The notes beneath the pieces are model-generated. The model was not told the DNA's origin, made no database searches, and saw only the letters and a list, made by a program, of their open reading frames with translations. From Emticicia aquatilis (lineage in GTDB: Bacteria; Bacteroidota; Bacteroidia; Cytophagales; Spirosomataceae): 64,000 nt of DNA. The stretch lies in assembly GCF_014644295.1 (NCBI RefSeq), contig NZ_BMKK01000008.1:1-64000 (forward strand), read 5' to 3'. The position numbers and the translations under genes were made by a program. Of the stretch, positions 26,959 through 58,555 are shown in pieces; position 1 is the stretch's first letter, and the number at the start of each line of letters is the position of its first letter.

Positions 26959-27066
26959 TACTGGTTATTGGTAAATTGGGGAACTGGTTATTGGTTTTAT
27001 GATACTTATGAATCACACTCCTAATAACTAATTTACCAGTAAACCGGTCACCATTTAACCAGTAAT
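26959..27066. repeat. Spacer element, CTGGTTATTGG-family iterons in inverted arms
   Basis: The left arm (26959-26996) carries ACTGGTTATTGGT twice and AAATTGGGGA. The right arm (27020-27066) carries CTAATAACTAATTTACCAGT and ACCGGTCACC and AACCAGTAAT. The arms are imperfect complements about 25 bp apart, filling the space between the permease and garD genes. Same family as 37684-37748, 53046-53134 and the arms of 56544-57025. Confidence 0.7.
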
Positions 27067-27076
27067 AGACAATAAA

Positions 27077-36793: not shown

Positions 36794-36902
36794 ACGATTT
36801 TGGATTTACGATTTTGGATTTACGATTTTGGATTACGGATTTAGCAGCCCAAAATCTTACTGTAAAAACTTAAATCCCAAATCCCCAATCTGAAATCCCA
36901 AA
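36794..36902. repeat. Spacer element, GATTTTGGATTTACG-family iterons in inverted arms
   Basis: The left arm (36794-36842) repeats ACGATTTTGGATTT three times. The right arm (36869-36902) repeats AAATCCCAAATC and AATCTGAAATCCC and runs into the start codon of the following SDR gene. The arms are imperfect complements with about 26 bp between them. No gene lies inside. Confidence 0.75.
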
Positions 36903-37672
36903 TGAATAATTTATTTGATTTATCTGGAAAAACCGCTCTTATCACAGGCTCAACATCGGGTATGGGTAAGGCAATTGCTTATGCGATGGGGCTACATGGT
37001 GCAAAAATTGTAGTTTCGAGCAATGATATGGCTGGAGTAATCGAAACTGTCGAGGAATTTCGTGCTGAAAAAATCGAAGCCATTGGGGTTGAGTGTGATA
37101 TGAATAGTAAAGCAGATATTGATACCCTTTACCAGCAAGCTATCGGTACTTTTGGCAAGATTGATATTTTAGTAAACTGCGTAGGAGTAGCTCCAACGGG
37201 TAGTTTTTTCGATATTAATCAAGAAAATTTTGAGAAAACTATGGGTTTGAATCTTCAAGCAGCCATTTACTTAACAAAATTGGTCATTTCGACCATGCAG
37301 GAGCAAAATGATGGGTCTATCATTTACTTGGCAAGTATTGCGGGTGTACGAGGTAATAAATATCTGGGACTTTATGGCGTTTCGAAAGCTGGTTTGATTG
37401 AATTAGCCCGAAATCTTGCGGTAGAATTTGGCCCCGATAATATCAGAGTAAATACGATTTCACCCGGTATGATAAACACACCTTTTTCGGAATCTTTAAT
37501 GAAAAACGAAGAATTCATGAAAAAACGTTTATCTCAAACTCCACTTAGAAGAGTAGGCGAAGTAGAAGAAATTGCTGGTGTAGCAGTAATGCTCGCCTCG
37601 AAAGCAGGAGGATTCATTACTGGCCAAAATATAATTGTTGATGGTGGCACTACGATTAGCGATGGGAATTAG
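36902..37672 (+). CDS. Short-chain dehydrogenase/reductase
   Basis: A 256-residue classical SDR. NAD(P) site TGSTSGMGKAIAYAM, the NCVGVAP stand-in for NNAG, catalytic Ser in LASIAGV and YGVSKAG with the Tyr/Lys pair; the C-terminus GQNIIVDGGTTI is typical. The second strand ends VVSSND, which favours neither cofactor clearly. Its position beside a second SDR, a cupin and Dabb protein suggests oxidation of a hydroxyl group in the cluster's pathway. The start codon is provided by the end of the upstream repeat. Confidence 0.92.
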   Translation: MNNLFDLSGKTALITGSTSGMGKAIAYAMGLHGAKIVVSSNDMAGVIETVEEFRAEKIEAIGVECDMNSKADIDTLYQQAIGTFGKIDILVNCVGVAPTGSFFDINQENFEKTMGLNLQAAIYLTKLVISTMQEQNDGSIIYLASIAGVRGNKYLGLYGVSKAGLIELARNLAVEFGPDNIRVNTISPGMINTPFSESLMKNEEFMKKRLSQTPLRRVGEVEEIAGVAVMLASKAGGFITGQNIIVDGGTTISDGN

Positions 37673-37756: not shown

Positions 37757-38515
37757 ATGAAAAGATTCCAAAATAAAGTAGCTATTGTAACGGGTGCAGC
37801 ATCGGGAATTGGGCGTGCAACGGCCATCAAATTTGCCGAAGAAGGAGCTAATGTTGTATTGGCAGATTTGGCTGAATTTGAGTCAGTGAAATCCGAAATC
37901 ACAAATCCGCAATCCCATATTTATTTAAAATGCAATATCGGTGAACGAGCAGACGTAGTAAATCTAATAGAAACCACCGTAAAAACCTTTGGCAGAATAG
38001 ATTATGCCGTAAATTGTGCGGGTATTGCAGGAAAAGTCTCCAAACCTGTGCATGAATACCCAGAAGAAGATTGGTTGAATCAAATTCAGATTAATCTTGT
38101 GGGCACTTGGTATTGCGTGAAATTTCAGTTGGAACAAATGATGAAACAAGGCGGTGGAAATATCGTTTGTGTTTCGTCGGCGGCAGGTTTAGTGGGGCAA
38201 CCCGAAAACTCGCCTTATGCGGCATCGAAACATGGCGTAAATGGCTTAGTGAAATCGGCAGCTATAGAATATGCCACTAAAAATATCAGAATAAACGCCA
38301 TTTGTCCAACCGCCATAGAGACGCCCATGATTATGCACGGTAGAAGAAAATTAGCCGAAAATCCCGAAGCACTACAACAAGCCATTAATTTCCAACGCAT
38401 GAAACGCATGGGGAAACCAGAAGAAGTAGCCGATGTGGCTCTTTGGCTTTGTTCCGACCAGTCGAGCTTCATCACTGGGCATTGCATGGCGGTTGATGGT
38501 GGGGCATTTGCTTAA
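37757..38515 (+). CDS. Short-chain dehydrogenase/reductase with repeat-derived segment
   Basis: A 252-residue classical SDR. NAD site VTGAASGIGRATAIKFAEEG with D at the end of the second strand (LADL), which favours NAD, then NCAGIAG, catalytic Ser in VSSAAG, YAASKHG and C-terminal CMAVDGGA. Residues 45-54 (KSEITNPQSH) are encoded by AAATCCGAAATC-type repeat sequence identical in kind to the intergenic A/C-rich arms, replacing the usual variable loop after the second strand. It forms an operon with the neighbouring SDR and Dabb genes. Confidence 0.9.
   Translation: MKRFQNKVAIVTGAASGIGRATAIKFAEEGANVVLADLAEFESVKSEITNPQSHIYLKCNIGERADVVNLIETTVKTFGRIDYAVNCAGIAGKVSKPVHEYPEEDWLNQIQINLVGTWYCVKFQLEQMMKQGGGNIVCVSSAAGLVGQPENSPYAASKHGVNGLVKSAAIEYATKNIRINAICPTAIETPMIMHGRRKLAENPEALQQAINFQRMKRMGKPEEVADVALWLCSDQSSFITGHCMAVDGGAFA
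37888..37919. repeat. AAATCCGAAATC-type repeat inside an SDR gene
   Basis: GAAATCCGAAATC, ACAAATCCG and CAATCCC follow each other in the coding sequence. They match the A/C-rich arms at 36869-36902 and 50527-50560 in sequence style and orientation. Read in frame as residues 45-54 of the SDR. Confidence 0.65.
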
Positions 38516-50063: not shown

Positions 50064-50098
50064 TGATTTGGGATTTTTGATTTGGGATTTCGGATTTA
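50064..50098. repeat. Left arm of the repeat pair bracketing the four-helix-bundle gene 50148-50510
   Basis: G/T-rich iterons TGATTTGGGATTT, TTGATTTGGGATTT and CGGATTTA begin right after the stop codon at 50063. They are an imperfect reverse complement of 50527-50560. Confidence 0.75.
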
Positions 50099-50147: not shown

Positions 50148-50510
50148 ATGACACAAAAAGAACTACAAGATAGATTAAAAACCTATGCAATTGAGATTGT
50201 AAAGTTTGCTGAAAAATTACCCGATTCGCTTGGTTTTCGAACAGTACGAAATCAAATTGTTAGATGTGCTCCTTCTGCAGCTGCAAATTACAGGGCGGCT
50301 TGTAGAGGTAAATCAACTAACGATTTTAAATATAAACTGGAAATCGTTGAGGAAGAATTAGACGAAACTATGTTTTGGTTAGAATTCACAGTTGGCCTTG
50401 ATGATTCAAAAAGAGATTTAGTTTCTCCGCTTTGGAAAGAAGGCAATGAATTATTATCAATCATAGTTTCAAGTATTAACTCAGTCAAAAAGAAATTAAA
50501 AAATAATTGA
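50148..50510 (+). CDS. Four-helix-bundle protein (23S rRNA intervening-sequence type)
   Basis: A 120-residue, fully helical protein of the four-helix-bundle/S23 family: LKTYAIEIVKFAEKLPDS, then VRNQIVRCAPSAAANYRAAC and the long helix LEIVEEELDETMFWLEF. In other bacteria such genes occur inside intervening sequences of 23S rRNA and as Avd partners of diversity-generating retroelements; no reverse transcriptase or rRNA gene is near. Here it sits between the dioxygenase and hydrolase genes, bracketed by inverted iteron arms at 50064-50098 and 50527-50560. It does not look like part of the pathway. A second, different family member at 56620-57003 is bracketed in the same way. Confidence 0.88.
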   Translation: MTQKELQDRLKTYAIEIVKFAEKLPDSLGFRTVRNQIVRCAPSAAANYRAACRGKSTNDFKYKLEIVEEELDETMFWLEFTVGLDDSKRDLVSPLWKEGNELLSIIVSSINSVKKKLKNN

Positions 50511-50526: not shown

Positions 50527-50560
50527 AAATCCCCAATCCAAAATCCCCAATCCAAAATCA
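50527..50560. repeat. Right arm of the repeat pair bracketing the four-helix-bundle gene 50148-50510
   Basis: A/C-rich iterons AAATCCCCAATCCAAAATCC and CCAATCCAAAATCA end 2 bp before the next start codon at 50563. Their reverse complement follows the left arm closely (TGATTT, GGATT and GGGATTT units in the same order). Confidence 0.75.
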
Positions 50561-51772: not shown

Positions 51773-53047
51773 ATACAACAAATAAAAAAAGGAATCACAT
51801 ACGCCGAGAGCAAAGAGGCGGATTTGAAAGTAAGGGCATTAGTAGAAAACATGCTCGAAAAAGTTACGCAAGAAGGCGATGCCGCTGTGCGTGAGTTTTC
51901 AGCAAATCTTGATAAATGGTCACCTGCCAGTTTCCGACTATCTGAGTCAGAAATCAAAGAAATCATTGCGGGCTTACCGCAACAAGTAATTGATGATATT
52001 AATTTCGCACAAACCCAAATCAGAAATTTTGCTCAAATTCAACGTGAATCTATTAAGGATGTTGAGGTTGAAACCCTACCAGGCGTTTTCTTGGGACATA
52101 AAAATATTCCAGTAAACTCGGTGGGCTGCTATGTTCCAGGTGGACGCTATCCAATGGTTGCATCGGCTCACATGAGCGTACTCACGGCAAAAGTAGCAGG
52201 TGTAAAGCGTGTAATTGCTTGTACACCACCCATTAATGGACAAATTCCATCCGCTACGGTAGCGGCAATGTACATGGCAGGTGCTGACGAAATTTATCTT
52301 TTGGGCGGCGTTCAGGCAATCGCTATGATGGCTATTGGTACCGAAACAGTAAAACCAGTCGATATGCTCGTTGGGCCGGGAAACGCCTACGTAGCCGAAG
52401 CCAAGCGTCAGCTTTTTGGTAAAGTTGGAATTGACCTTTTTGCTGGCCCGACCGAAACTTTGGTGATTGCCGATGATACAACCGATGTAGAAACTTGTGC
52501 CACTGATTTGCTCGGTCAAGCCGAACACGGTCCAACTTCACCAGCAGTTTTACTGACTACCAGCAAAACCATTGCCGAAGGTATCGAAGCCGAAATTCAA
52601 AGACAACTAACTGTTTTACCAACGGCCGATGTTGCCGCTGTTGCTTGGAGAGATTACGGACAAGTAATATTATGTGATACCGTTGATGAATTAATTTCGG
52701 AAGCCGACCGCATCGCCAGCGAACACGTACAGGTAATGACCAAAAATCCACGTCTTTTCTTAGAAAAAATGACCAATTTCGGTGGATTATTCTTAGGTGA
52801 TAAAACTAATGTGGCTTATGGCGATAAAGTCATAGGTACAAACCATACGCTTCCAACAAGAGAAGCAGCTCGCTACACCGGCGGACTTTGGGTAGGCAAA
52901 TTCTTAAAAACTTGCACATACCAAGAAATCAAAACCGAAGAAGCAAGCAAGCTAATTGGTGAATATTGTTCTCGTCTATGCGAAATCGAAAACTTCGCAG
53001 GTCACAAAGAACAGGCAGATTTGAGAGTTAGAAAATATAGTAAATAG
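51770..53047 (+). CDS. HisD-like NAD-dependent alcohol dehydrogenase
   Basis: A 425-residue member of the histidinol dehydrogenase family. Zinc ligands correspond to Q250 and H253 (GQAEHGP), D352 ([11 protein letters not shown]) and H412 ([11 protein letters not shown]); the catalytic pair E318-H319 is in ASEHVQV. The NAD region has [15 protein letters not shown] and [13 protein letters not shown]. No other histidine genes are present, and similar proteins (for example HpsN) oxidise non-histidine alcohols in catabolic clusters, so I infer a pathway alcohol or aldehyde as substrate. Its ATG is the last triplet of the palindromic element upstream. Confidence 0.88.
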
Positions 53048-53134
53048 TTACTGGAGAATTAGTTACTGGTTATTTGTATTTTTCATTAATATAGTAATCA
53101 ATAACCAGTTTTCTAATAACTAATCAACCAATAA
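53046..53134. repeat. Spacer element, CTGGTTATTGG-family iterons in inverted arms
   Basis: The left arm (53046-53075) has AGTTACTGGAGAATTAGTTA then CTGGTTATT. The right arm (53098-53134) has AATAACCAGTT, CTAATAACTAATCAACCAAT and AAT, ending at the next start codon. The arms are imperfect complements about 22 bp apart; no gene inside. Confidence 0.7.
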
Positions 53135-53135
53135 T

Positions 53136-53906
53136 ATGAAAACAGTTCTCGTAACAGGCGGTGCAGGAGAAATCGGCTCTGCAATTTGTAAGCAATTTGC
53201 TGAAAATGGTTTTTCAGTCATTGCAACCTATAATAGCAATTCCACAAAAGCAGAGAAATTATTGGATGAACTGAGCCAATTACCAGTAACCAATAACCAA
53301 TCTACTAATCACAGTATTTTCCACGCTCCAACTACCGATGCACAGAAAGTAAATGATTTAAAGGCATTTGTTACAGAAAAGTACGGAAAATTAGATGTAT
53401 TGGTCAATAATGCAGGAATTACGACACCCGTTCCGCACGATGATTTAGATGGCTTGACAGACGAGTGGATTGATAAAATCATGCAAACCAATTTCAGAGG
53501 TTCGTTTGCGATGGTAAGGGCAATGAGAGACTTATTAGATAAAGCGTCTTATGAAAGTAAAGAGTCATCTTTGGTAGTCAATATTTCATCTATTGCAGGA
53601 ATTTACGGCATCGGAAGTAATGTTGCGTACTGTGCTTCAAAATCTGCCATAGATTCTATGACACGCTCTTTAGCAAGGGCTTTAGCTCCAAAAATTAGGG
53701 TTGTATCTGTTTCACCAGGCTTTGTAGAAGGAGAATATACCAAAAATTTCGACCCAGCTTATTTGCAAAATCAAATGGATAATACACCATTAGGACGTTT
53801 TGCAAAAGGTATTGATGTGGCTAATGTGGTTTTTTCACTTGCCACTTCCATGACATTCTCAACTGGAAATATCATTACAGTTGATGGTGGTAGATTGTTA
53901 AAATAA
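53136..53906 (+). CDS. Short-chain dehydrogenase/reductase with repeat-derived segment
   Basis: A 256-residue classical SDR. Cofactor motif VTGGAGEIGSAICKQFAENG, then VNNAGITT, catalytic Ser in NISSIAG, YCASKSAIDS with Tyr and Lys, and a final NIITVDGGRLL. Residues 49-59 (LPVTNNQSTNH) are encoded by AACCAATAACC-type repeat sequence matching the intergenic right arms of the CTGGTTATTGG family; SDRs normally have a short loop here. A palindrome (53915-53934) follows the gene. It belongs to the same run as the HisD-like gene and may oxidise a ring-cleavage or side-chain alcohol. Confidence 0.9.
   Translation: MKTVLVTGGAGEIGSAICKQFAENGFSVIATYNSNSTKAEKLLDELSQLPVTNNQSTNHSIFHAPTTDAQKVNDLKAFVTEKYGKLDVLVNNAGITTPVPHDDLDGLTDEWIDKIMQTNFRGSFAMVRAMRDLLDKASYESKESSLVVNISSIAGIYGIGSNVAYCASKSAIDSMTRSLARALAPKIRVVSVSPGFVEGEYTKNFDPAYLQNQMDNTPLGRFAKGIDVANVVFSLATSMTFSTGNIITVDGGRLLK
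53279..53312. repeat. AACCAATAACC-type repeat inside an SDR gene
   Basis: ATTACCAGTAACCAATAACC then AATCTACTAATCAC lies within the coding sequence and is read in frame as residues 49-59. It matches the right arms at 53098-53134 and 57001-57025 in sequence and orientation. The nearest element of the same family ends 145 bp upstream, before this gene. Confidence 0.75.
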
Positions 53907-55788: not shown

Positions 55789-56547
55789 ATGAAGATAATA
55801 GACCTTTCTGTAACTATTTCAGAAAAAATAAAAGAGCCAATGGCCACCAAAATCGACTACGAAGACCATAAAAATGGTGCAAAGAAGATTGGTGCAATGC
55901 TTTTTGGTGGAATGACCGATTGTTTTGTAAATGATAATGGTCCAGCAGGCGAAACGCTGACCGTAACAAGCCATTGTGGAACCCACGTAGATGCTCCATA
56001 TCATTACTACCCAACTTGCGAAGGCAAACCTTCACGCACCATTGATGAAATGCCTTTGGAGTGGTTTTTTCAAGATGGCGTTGTGCTTGATTTTACCGAT
56101 AAACCAGATGGCTATATGTTCGAGCCTGAAGATTTAATCGAAAAACTCGCCGCTATCAATTATACCCTAAAACCGATGGACATTGTTCTGATTCGTTGTG
56201 ATGCCGATAAGCGTATTCATGATGATGATTTTGTAAAAATCCACGTTGGGGCATCAGCAAAAGCTACTCATTGGCTCATCGACCAAGGTATTAAAGTAAT
56301 GGGAACCGATGGCTGGGGTTGGGATATTCCATTGCATATTCAAGCGGCTGATTATAAGGCAAATCCAAGACCGGGAGTCATTTGGCAAGCTCATTATGTA
56401 GGTATCGAAAAAGAATACTGTCAAATAGAAAAATTGGCAAATCTTGACCTATTACCACCTTTTGGCTTTAAAGTAGCTTGTTTTCCAGCAAAAATCGAAA
56501 AAGCAAGTGCTGGCTGGACAAGAGCAGTAGCTATTTTGGAGGATTAG
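55789..56547 (+). CDS. Cyclase-family (KynB-like) metal-dependent hydrolase
   Basis: A 252-residue cytoplasmic protein of the cyclase/kynurenine formamidase family. The metal motif HCGTHVDAPYH gives H62, H66, D68 and H72 as ligands or near-ligands. Later signatures are DIVLIRCDADK, MGTDGWGWD and the final PAKIEKASAGWTRAVAI. The family opens lactones, amides and formyl groups, and members occur in many aromatic catabolic operons; a lactone or enol intermediate is a likely substrate. It follows the GH2 gene by 6 bp, so a secreted and a cytoplasmic enzyme share a transcript. Confidence 0.88.
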   Translation: MKIIDLSVTISEKIKEPMATKIDYEDHKNGAKKIGAMLFGGMTDCFVNDNGPAGETLTVTSHCGTHVDAPYHYYPTCEGKPSRTIDEMPLEWFFQDGVVLDFTDKPDGYMFEPEDLIEKLAAINYTLKPMDIVLIRCDADKRIHDDDFVKIHVGASAKATHWLIDQGIKVMGTDGWGWDIPLHIQAADYKANPRPGVIWQAHYVGIEKEYCQIEKLANLDLLPPFGFKVACFPAKIEKASAGWTRAVAILED

Positions 56548-56583
56548 TTATTGGTAACTGGTTATTGGTATTTTATTGGTAAC
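56544..56583. repeat. Left arm of the repeat pair bracketing the four-helix-bundle gene 56620-57003
   Basis: TTAGTTATTGGTAACTGGTT followed by ATTGGTATTTTATTGGTAAC, starting within the stop codon of the cyclase gene. It is the imperfect reverse complement of 57001-57025. Confidence 0.78.
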
Positions 56584-56619
56584 ATGGTAAATTGTATTCT
56601 TTTTCAATCTTAATATCGT

Positions 56620-57003
56620 ATGAAATCATTCACTGAATTAGAGGTTTACAAGGTATGTAGAAATTTAAGAAAATTAATTTCTGATTTAGTGAAGAACAGG
56701 TTTCCCGATAATGAAAAATATAAACTCTCAGACCAAATCATAAGAAGTTCGAGAAGCATAACAGCGAATATCGCAGAAGGCTTTGGAAGATACTATTACA
56801 AAGAAAATATTCAGTTTTGTAGAATGGCGAGAGGTTCTTTAAATGAAACATTGGAGCATCTAATTGTAGCTTTTGACGAAAAATATATTGATGACCAAGA
56901 ATTGTTGAAAATGAAAATCGAAATTGATTCATGTGGTAAATTACTGAATGGATATATAAATAGCCTTAAAAGTTTGCAAAAACCCAAAGAAGAAGACCAA
57001 TAA
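56620..57003 (+). CDS. Four-helix-bundle protein (23S rRNA intervening-sequence type)
   Basis: A 127-residue helical protein of the four-helix-bundle/S23 family with the usual signatures ELEVYKVCRNLRKLISDLV, LSDQIIRSSRSITANIAEGF, a GRYYYKENIQFCRMARGS helix and LNETLEHL. It differs clearly from the copy at 50148-50510, which lacks the SSRSITANIAEG segment. It lies between cyclase and ABM genes and is bracketed by inverted arms at 56544-56583 and 57001-57025; its stop codon is inside the right arm. No reverse transcriptase, template repeat or rRNA gene is near. Confidence 0.9.
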   Translation: MKSFTELEVYKVCRNLRKLISDLVKNRFPDNEKYKLSDQIIRSSRSITANIAEGFGRYYYKENIQFCRMARGSLNETLEHLIVAFDEKYIDDQELLKMKIEIDSCGKLLNGYINSLKSLQKPKEEDQ

Positions 57004-57025
57004 CAAGTAACCAATTACCAATAAC
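57001..57025. repeat. Right arm of the repeat pair bracketing the four-helix-bundle gene 56620-57003
   Basis: TAACAAGTAACCAATTACCA then ATAAC. Its reverse complement GTTATTGGTAATTGGTTACT matches the left arm at 56547-56572 with few changes. It contains the stop codon of the bracketed gene and ends 1 bp before the next ATG. Confidence 0.8.
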
Positions 57026-57026
57026 T

Positions 57027-57308
57027 ATGATTTTAGAACTTGCAAGAATAGACATTAAAGAAAGTACAAATGCCGAATTTGAGGCAGCTTTAGAAAAGGC
57101 AAAAGGCGTGATTTCACAGGCGAAAGGTTTTCAAAAAATAAGCGTGAAAAAATGTATCGAGCAAGCGAATCGCTACATTTTATTGATTGAGTGGGACACC
57201 CTCGAAGACCATACCATTGGTTTCCGAGAGTCCGAACTTTTTAAAGAGTGGCGAGCATTAATCGGCCCATTTTTCTTAGAACCACCATTGGTACAACATT
57301 ATATTTGA
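57027..57308 (+). CDS. Antibiotic biosynthesis monooxygenase (ABM)-family protein
   Basis: A 93-residue ferredoxin-like protein of the ABM family: LELARIDIKESTNAEFEAAL, VISQAKGFQKISVKKC, YILLIEWDTLEDH and FRESELFKEWR. Such dimers act as cofactor-free quinol or phenol oxygenases or as haem-degrading or accessory proteins. Next to an FAD hydroxylase and KynB-like cyclase, oxidation of a quinol-type intermediate is a reasonable guess. Confidence 0.85.
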   Translation: MILELARIDIKESTNAEFEAALEKAKGVISQAKGFQKISVKKCIEQANRYILLIEWDTLEDHTIGFRESELFKEWRALIGPFFLEPPLVQHYI

Positions 57309-57440
57309 TTGTGGATTTGGGATTTACGATTTTGGATTTAAAATCTTGTATTTACCCAAATTTTAGATAAAATATTCAATCCTTAATTAAAGAACAAATG
57401 AATGAAAAATCCGAAATCCGAAATCATATTTCCAAAATCC
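57307..57440. repeat. GATTTTGGATTTACG-family element whose right arm is coding
   Basis: The left arm (57307-57340) is G/T-rich: GTGGATTTGGGATTTACGAT then TTTGGATTTA. The right arm (57401-57440) is A/C-rich: AATGAAAAATCCGAAATCCG then AAATCATATTTCCAAAATCC. The right arm starts at the start codon region of the FAD monooxygenase and encodes its first 13 or so residues. Confidence 0.7.
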
Positions 57441-58555
57441 TTGTAGTTGGAGCTGGTATTGGCGGCCAGTCGGTTGCGATTGGTCTGAAAAAAGCTGGTT
57501 TTGAGGTAGATATCGTAGAAATTCATAAAGAATTTAATGTTTATGGCGTAGGTATTATTCAGCAAGCCAATGCCCTCAGAGCCTTAGATGCCATCGATGT
57601 TGCCGATGAAGCCATGCGTCGAGGTTCGCCTTATGGTAAAGTTAAACTATGTCTGGCTCATGGTGTTCAAATCGGCGAAGCTGGAACCCCACCGATTGGT
57701 CGTTTCCCGAGTCATAATGGTATTTCTCGTAGAATTCTGCACGATGTTTTATTTGAAGAAGCACAAAAAGTAGGATTGAAATATCGAATGGGCGTGACTG
57801 TCGAAACTATTGATAATCAGCCAGATGTAGCTAATGTAACTTTCTCTGATGGTACTTCGGGTAGCTACGACATTGTCATTGCAGCCGATGGCGTAAATTC
57901 AAAAGTACGTAAACTCATTTTTGGCGAATTTAAAACAAGTTATGTAGGTTTATCGGTTTGGCGATACGCGTTCAAGCGTCCAGCCGGCTTAGATACTGGC
58001 TATATTTTCTTCAATAAAAAGCACAAACTCGGCGTAATTCCAATGACGGCTGATTTGTGTTATATATTTGTGAACTCGGCAGAAGGCGATAACCCAATGA
58101 TTCCAGAAGACCAGTTGGTTGATAAGCTAAAAGCATATATGTCGGCTTATCCGATTCCGATGGTTCAGGAACTCATTCCACAGGTGACAGATGCCAAATT
58201 GGTTAATTATCGTACGCTCGAAACCCTCAAAATGCCTGCTCCTTGGTACAAAAACCGTGTGGTAGTGTTGGGCGATGCCGCTCATACAACCATTCCACAA
58301 CTCGGCTCGGGGGCTGCTTTGGCTATCGAAGATGCGGTGGTTTTGATTGAAGAATTGCAGAAAGAAGGTTCGGTTGAGGAAATATTCGAAAGATACATGA
58401 AGCGTCGCCACGACCGTTGTAAAATGGTGGTAGAGGTTTCGGAAACTTTGGGTGCTTGGGAACTACTCGAATACACCGACCAACCATTGCCCGAAGGTGC
58501 AAACATGGGTATGCTCATGGGCAAAACAGGCATGGCATTGACACAAGAGATATAA
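57398..58555 (+). CDS. FAD-dependent aromatic hydroxylase-like monooxygenase
   Basis: A 385-residue class A flavoprotein of the PHBH fold, similar to salicylate and 3-hydroxybenzoate hydroxylases. Motifs: ILVVGAGIGGQSVAIGLKKA with E at the end of the second strand, DG motif YDIVIAADGVNSKVRKL, and GD motif VVVLGDAAHTTIPQLGSGAA. The first residues (MNEKSEIRNHISK) come from repeat sequence; the fold itself starts at about residue 13, so the N-terminus looks extended by the repeat. It would put a hydroxyl on an aromatic ring, which fits as the step before the extradiol dioxygenase at 49071. Confidence 0.88.
   Translation: MNEKSEIRNHISKILVVGAGIGGQSVAIGLKKAGFEVDIVEIHKEFNVYGVGIIQQANALRALDAIDVADEAMRRGSPYGKVKLCLAHGVQIGEAGTPPIGRFPSHNGISRRILHDVLFEEAQKVGLKYRMGVTVETIDNQPDVANVTFSDGTSGSYDIVIAADGVNSKVRKLIFGEFKTSYVGLSVWRYAFKRPAGLDTGYIFFNKKHKLGVIPMTADLCYIFVNSAEGDNPMIPEDQLVDKLKAYMSAYPIPMVQELIPQVTDAKLVNYRTLETLKMPAPWYKNRVVVLGDAAHTTIPQLGSGAALAIEDAVVLIEELQKEGSVEEIFERYMKRRHDRCKMVVEVSETLGAWELLEYTDQPLPEGANMGMLMGKTGMALTQEI

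Follow-up and report, generated by a model that had tools for sequence, protein, structure and literature searches.

A four-helix-bundle gene between inverted heptamer arrays suggests a protein family that may read its own flanking word

Does a small gene that is enclosed by two inverted arrays of a seven-letter word encode a protein that reads this very word? The question is raised by a locus in the window, i.e. the whole 64-kb stretch of DNA analysed here. The layout found at this locus recurs around relatives of the gene, which suggests own-word reading by the protein and may explain long-unexplained seven-letter repeats. Intergenic heptamer repeats of bacteria are on record but have no known partner, and the S23 or intervening-sequence (IVS) protein is without established function. 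If each protein reads its flanking repeat, both questions become testable by a single binding assay, and the subfamilies would, if this is true, represent natural protein-word pairs for deriving a recognition code.

The gene and its two arms

ORF 56620-57003 (plus strand) is intact and encodes 127 residues. In profile searches it reached 109.1 bits against PF05635 (cut-off 33.8) and 104.1 bits against TIGR02436 (cut-off 24), i.e. the "S23" or 23S rRNA intervening-sequence protein family. The predicted model of the protein (mean pLDDT 94.6) is composed of four helices, and a Foldseek search with this model returned 2gsc (TMq 0.85), then 2rld, as well as the Avd structure 4dwl (TMq 0.74, E 0.03) and the DGR ribonucleoprotein structures 8ub7, 8ube and 8ubb. 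Both 2gsc, the source organism of which is X. campestris, and 2rld comprise five chains, and five four-helix bundles are named in the title of the 2gsc paper.

The proposal, made from the letters alone, that inverted arms bracket this gene was borne out by the repeat search and the profile matches. Two inverted repeats were detected, 56543-56572 with 56993-57022 (30 nt, 83% complementary) and 56545-56569 with 57003-57027 (25 nt, 88% complementary), and the spacing between the arms amounts to 420-433 nt. The left arm (56543-56583, plus strand) is a G-rich tandem heptamer array, starting TTATTGG TAACTGG TTATTGG, the outer part of which, with an end at about 56583 beyond the computed repeat, was judged by eye. 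It holds the stop codon (56545-56547) of the upstream neighbour, a cyclase-like gene. The right arm (56993-57025, plus strand), recovered by the repeat search as the inverse C-rich array, holds the TAA (57001-57003) of the ORF itself, and the next ATG is located at 57027; the downstream neighbour is an ABM-domain gene. Thus, the sequence-only reading was right to place the stop codon of the gene within the right arm and the next start beside it, with one base between arm and ATG. Its term "iterons" is better replaced by "degenerate heptamer (or octamer) arrays".

The pattern CTGGTTATTGG occurs three times in the window, where 0.05 occurrences are expected, and yields 26 matches genome-wide against 7 for the reversed pattern. 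Many of the genome matches represent gene-less inverted intergenic pairs, and some are single arrays or fall in coding sequence. When left/right arm pairing was scored for 50 genes of the window, the two four-helix-bundle genes ranked first and second (46 and 39), followed by 57398-58555 with a score of 37.

The second four-helix-bundle gene, 50148-50510 (plus strand; PF05635 38.9 bits, TIGR02436 62.1 bits), is flanked by a GATTTNN heptamer array on the left (50065-50097, plus strand) and by an inverse GATTTNN array on the right (50528-50559, plus strand). Hence two different proteins are each found with a repeat family of their own, GATTTNN for 50148-50510 and TTATTGG for 56620-57003, congruent with what had been claimed. 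The genome holds three PF05635-family genes at the search threshold, and the third (contig C1, locus L002) is accompanied by a separate, unrelated arm family, GAATGAGT.

The TTATTGG family was also correctly said to occur elsewhere in the window without a gene. At 26961-27070 (extent by eye), the array 26961-26994 has a C-rich partner with no gene in between, and at 53046-53135 (by eye) an inverted pair with the arms 53046-53077 and 53099-53135 occupies the whole interval between a stop codon and the following ATG. Analogously, gene-less inverted pairs of the GATTT family are located at 36796-36903 and, adjoining the target locus, at 57307-57439; none of these gene-less pairs is assigned to a strand. 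The pattern GATTTNNGATTTNNGATTT gave 22 matches against 2 in the control, at nine sites of the genome. Five of the nine GATTTNN sites lie in the window around the gene-bearing copy (13934, 36796, 37889, 50065 and 57314/57407), which looks like local spread. The site at 37889 is on the minus strand, inside ORF 37757-38515. Moreover, a C-rich TTATTGG-family array occupies 53276-53301 of the coding frame 53136-53906, which means that such arrays can invade genes or form in them.

Recurrence of the layout and its tie to the protein

Relatives are present in 10 of 11 genomes of the same genus, in 110 of 120 of the same family and, with the 56620-57003 protein as query, in 181 of 296 of the phylum (own genome counted throughout). 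For 159 of the 167 loci with a family match, the others being removed by a length filter, by flank length, as identical proteins or as the duplicate L084, the left flank was compared with the inverse of the own right flank. This own-arm match falls within the top 5% of other-locus matches in 128 loci, where about 8 are expected, and within the top 1% in 71. The autocorrelation of both flanks peaks at lags 7 and 14, more weakly at 8 and 15, and is near the shuffled level at lags 3-6. At the control lags 5, 6, 9 and 10, left-flank arrays were recovered in 0, 0, 2 and 0 of the 159 loci, respectively.

Strong arm pairing was found in 121 of 202 family loci, which are partly dependent because many share sites, and in 1 of 48 other genes of the window. 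Arrays in both flanks are present in 81 of these family loci and 2 of the other genes, and counting all loci with paired arms or with an array on at least one side gives 172 and 9, respectively. Neither was detected in 30 of the 202 loci, 29 of which encode proteins of normal length (106-158 residues). Together with the own-arm matches, the pairing counts strongly support the earlier notion of a general protein-plus-repeat system; the same layout with different words recurs around many relatives in several bacterial phyla.

In total, 241 arrays were found in 160 of the 202 loci. On the inward-reading strand, G exceeds C in 209 arrays, C exceeds G in 21, and the two are equal in 11. The 168 arrays of period 7 have a median of 35 nt, with five units being commonest (55) followed by four (41), and the 73 arrays of period 8 a median of 38 nt, with four units (24) ahead of five (16); array length is broadly spread. 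Within the heptamer, two neighbouring positions are more variable, with an adjacent-unit match of 0.54 and 0.41 against 0.62 and 0.57 in the null (152 arrays), and the other five positions match at 0.84-0.89 against 0.80-0.86 in the phase-shuffled null. The resulting 5+2 pattern, a core of 5 nt and a spacer of 2 nt, stands out only modestly from its null.

The gene is co-directional with both neighbours at 139 of 198 loci and opposite to both at 10, with 4 mixed and 45 not called, so it probably depends on readthrough transcription. We also assembled 19 plasmid loci (cyanobacteria, Gemmatirosa and Azospirillum) from 34 places in 31 records and 25 places in 23 records, partly overlapping and with Riemerella records left out. 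An array is present in the left flank of 16, in the right flank of 12 and in either of 18, counts that lack a background control for these genomes, the cyanobacterial ones being heptamer-rich. In 8 of the 19, the own right flank scores higher than any of the 18 others; within this set, L275 and L291 have the same protein and L283/L284 look near-identical. At L278, L279 and L281, on cyanobacterial plasmids, the gene is located between CRISPR-associated genes (cas10/cmr3 once, cas6/cas4 twice), and at L276 of Nostoc edaphicum the unit is antisense between genes annotated as two ribonucleotide reductase subunits. Carriage by phages was rejected, as 50,697 phage records contained no match at E<=1e-5.

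Does the word follow the protein? At non-orthologous sites, the closest proteins form 20 pairs, 16 of which have like arms (several of these pairs have a locus in common and are thus not fully independent); the share is 12% of 148 pairs at the next step of protein similarity and about 1% at baseline. Once the normalised protein score drops below about half of its maximum, arms resemble each other at close to the background level. A k-mer Mantel test on the 123 loci with arrays gave r 0.096, reached by 0 of 1000 permutations. The alignment-based counterpart, across 159 loci and all identities, gave r 0.051 and was not significant (maximum of 500 permutations 0.077).

The words themselves were compared between subfamilies. 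A first 4-mer enrichment was weak, with GTTA at 7 of 13 subfamily sites against 8 of 42 (p 0.02, up to 256 words tried). For a crossed word test, 42, 29 and 129 loci were reduced by flank homology to 19 of the target subfamily, 15 of the 50148 subfamily and 42 others. At least three GTTAY were present in 8, 0 and 1 of these, respectively (p 1.9e-4 for the target subfamily against the rest, 0.004 against the 50148 subfamily), and at least three GATTT in 6 of the 15 loci of the 50148 subfamily, 1 of the 19 and 5 of the 42 (p 0.027 against the rest, 0.019 against the target subfamily). The expected word stays below threshold at 11 of 19 target-subfamily sites and 9 of 15 sites of the 50148 subfamily. 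The reversed control TTTAG is not enriched (1 of 19, 2 of 15 and 5 of 42, in the order target, 50148, others). The reversed YATTG is commoner in the target subfamily (5 of 19, 2 of 15 and 2 of 42), and its overlap with TTATTG makes it an imperfect control.

Among 14 relatives in named genomes, GTTAT-type arms are found in a Saprospiraceae MAG, a Cytophagales MAG, Flavobacteriaceae and a Calditrichota MAG titled Caldithrix abyssi, and are absent at L238, at L241 and at the two Patescibacteria loci. Part of the target subfamily thus retains the core of the word, across family borders and in one further phylum. GATTT words are found in many loci that encode relatives of the 50148 protein, and TACGAAG or GAGGTAC words in others. 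The co-variation of protein and arms that had been predicted is accordingly supported by the closest pairs, the k-mer Mantel test and the word core; the alignment-based test does not bear it out, and it fades with distance. The association among close relatives could also be joint inheritance without recognition.

Relation between the arms, and rival explanations

How the two arms relate to each other was assessed at 26 of 30 orthologous sites, each with two or more loci. The own-arm match is higher than the match with the opposite arms of another genome at 24 sites, lower at one and equal at one (p 1.5e-6); thus, the arms change in concert. Unit order was compared for the 93 loci with arrays in both arms, giving a best-register identity of 0.797 against 0.788 when shuffled within phase (combined p 0.90), with 7 of the 93 at p<=0.05 and L052, L050, L088 and L272 at p<=0.02. 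This leaves arms as mutual copies, by gene conversion or template switching, unsupported across the set. Mismatches between the arms, read as sense RNA, comprise 155 G·U against 190 A·C (p 0.067; 91 of the 159 loci, those with strong arms). Concerted arms without common unit order or G·U excess point to two arrays of one word rather than a selected RNA stem, and the most economical interpretation is a reader that recognises one and the same word in each arm and is followed by both.

An RNA hairpin would nevertheless be the familiar answer: the arms would pair in the operon transcript, RNase III would cut the stem with the gene in its loop, and the pairing would be under selection. The passages of PMC4990558 on the Coxiella burnetii 23S IVS describe this very layout, with 28-bp complementary ends, the S23 ORF in the loop and RNase III cleavage, and the excess of co-directional over opposite genes speaks for it as well. 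We consider this unlikely, as the wobble counts and the unit-order shuffles leave an RNA stem as the cause of arm complementarity unsupported, albeit a word may pair in any register, and as a stem leaves the G-rich bias of the 5' arm (209 against 21) unexplained. TRAP is known to wrap RNA bearing regularly spaced triplets, and the protein could analogously attach to the G-rich array of its own mRNA leader, controlling translation of its gene or operon, without any mobility. Congruent with such autoregulation, the array is located upstream of the start codon, often has about five units with spacer-like variable positions, and relatives of the protein have five chains. The second inverted array after the gene, the gene-less pairs and the like units at unrelated sites are however left unexplained, making this option quite improbable.

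Finally, the heptamers could be an intergenic simple-sequence expansion by slippage, with the gene as a passenger that tolerates or attracts them. Indeed, most array sites of the window are without a gene, and an excess of intergenic heptamer repeats in several groups is reported in the relevant passages of PMC4692102 and PMC4679880. Slippage is nonetheless very unlikely in our view, considering that arms pair at 121 of 202 family loci but in 1 of 48 other genes, that they change in concert at 24 of 26 sites, and that the word follows the protein subfamily.

Turnover, the proposed unit and known systems

Orthologous sites show presence, decay and absence of the gene, with a direction of change that is not readable. 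The gap between the cyclase-like and ABM orthologues holds, in genome G008, an array pair of a related word with no gene and, in G005, an unrelated repeat; in G003, where the cyclase-like orthologue is not followed by the ABM gene, no arms were seen. At the 50148 site, the arms flank a broken gene in G005; G008 there has an array pair of a different word, again without a gene, and in G003 no array is clear. At two further sites of the genus, an intact gene, a broken gene, a residual arm or nothing was observed. Neither a target-site duplication nor a nuclease or a clean insertion was detected, and the orthologous sites have diverged beyond reading an insertion point. The earlier suggestion that empty pairs are non-autonomous copies is plausible: gene-less arrays exist, also at orthologous sites, and insertion, target duplication and movement were not seen.

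Other repeats also occupy these gaps. At L197/L195, in the gaps beside the ABM gene, a GC-rich inverted repeat CCCCTAACCCCTCAAGGGG ... CTCCCCTTTAGGGGCTGGGGG fills the same gap in G005, where it seems to read in frame into the next protein, and in G008 a similar inverted repeat is located after the ABM gene. At L222, ahead of the MEFIHF gene, a CACAGAG-type inverted repeat shares the gap with an apparent TGAGTTC right-arm remnant, hinting at array nesting or replacement.

We propose, giving it about an even chance of being correct, that the locus is a small selfish unit, the protein of which reads its own heptamer at both ends while word and protein drift together; the 23S rRNA IVS elements would be the rRNA-inserted form of such a unit. 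The unit would measure about 480 bp and consist of one gene and its two ends, each end with about five heptamers of roughly a 5-nt core and a 2-nt spacer, the G-rich strand pointing inwards. One protein ring would read one array as a single G-rich strand, and the same protein would recognise both ends. About one heptamer may be read per subunit, as suggested by the approximately five heptamers per array and the five-subunit relatives. Each lineage would have its own word, with both arms following the protein. Such G-strand reading accounts better than an RNA stem for the inward polarity, for arms that change together without sharing a register, and for the association of word and protein. Gene-less arrays may be remnants, or copies served in trans, and the gene probably borrows the transcription of its co-directional neighbours. 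From like units at unrelated sites and gene-less pairs we infer that units have moved at some time, by whichever enzymes would serve them.

It is possible, although we lean against it, that this extends to the entire family. PF05635 proteins would then be phylum-spanning word-reading rings, with about five subunits on about five heptamers of the G-rich strand at both ends of the gene, in a lock-and-key relation with the word. This would explain how the heptamer repeats known from cyanobacteria, Xanthomonas and Bacteroidota arose and what they do, and the 23S rRNA IVS elements would be those that landed in rRNA.

Heptamer repeats of this kind have been described before. The passages of Rehm et al. 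2015 (PMC4692102) on Xanthomonas report GGGANTN heptamers, with positions 1-4 and 6 conserved, mostly as four units and mostly intergenic, as well as convergent inverted pairs, 70 in Xcc and 75 in Xac. GGGAATC and GGGGA(C/T)T repeats are given there for Xanthomonas and Nostoc, and the Nostoc strain of that paper has few inverted pairs. The conserved positions, convergent inverted pairs and mostly intergenic location resemble the arrays described here. In contrast, those passages treat the heptamers as G-quadruplexes without a protein partner, and "four helix" and "S23" are absent from the main text of PMC4692102. The TAACTGA repeats of Beggiatoaceae, cyanobacteria and Bacteroidetes, in the corresponding passages of PMC4679880, are alike as intergenic tandem heptamers of scattered phylogenetic spread, but differ as direct repeats that in the main strain are mostly located just before start codons; "four helix", "23S" and "S23" are absent from the main text, which has no link to the PF05635 family.

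In the open-licence PMC literature, no paper tying the PF05635 family to heptamer repeats in general was found, the nearest being the Coxiella IVS. Directly upstream of the S23 start, this element has usually three tandem GACAGAT (two in some strains) and a GACAGAA, reported in the IVS passages of PMC4990558 without a tie to the protein. Like the target unit, 23S rRNA IVS elements such as that of Coxiella measure about 430-480 nt, with an S23-family ORF between complementary ends of about 28-30 nt, and ORF 56620-57003 is likewise an S23 ORF enclosed by complementary ends. Unlike them, the target unit is located outside the 23S rRNA gene, and there are many words, partly tied to subfamilies, and many gene-less pairs within one genome. 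Using four short motifs and up to 4 mismatches, no 23S motif was detected in the loci scanned, L001 among them.

In REP/RAYT systems, many inverted non-coding pairs are served by a protein encoded inside one pair. On paper, the gene-less pairs with one gene-bearing pair are alike, and terminal inverted repeats in many copies, as in MITE and REP-RAYT elements, are indeed found. Unlike RAYT, the ORF of the unit belongs, as the only family found for it, to four-helix bundles without a known catalytic domain, and no transposase family was recovered for it.

The Avd protein of diversity-generating retroelements has the same fold as the 56620-57003 protein, judging from the predicted model. The ORF however scores 20.6 bits against an Avd equivalog cut-off of 80, and no reverse transcriptase is close by, with both PF00078 matches of the genome on contig C21 and the window on C8, a contig without such a match. 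A reverse transcriptase of the same genome is moreover not needed for the presence of the family, since G004, G005, G010 and G027 all carry it and have no PF00078 match at E<=0.001, although past movement by such an enzyme is conceivable. A likeness of PF05635 and Avd is noted in a passage of PMC10053308, and a figure legend of PMC10910872 lists a 23S rRNA IVP domain.
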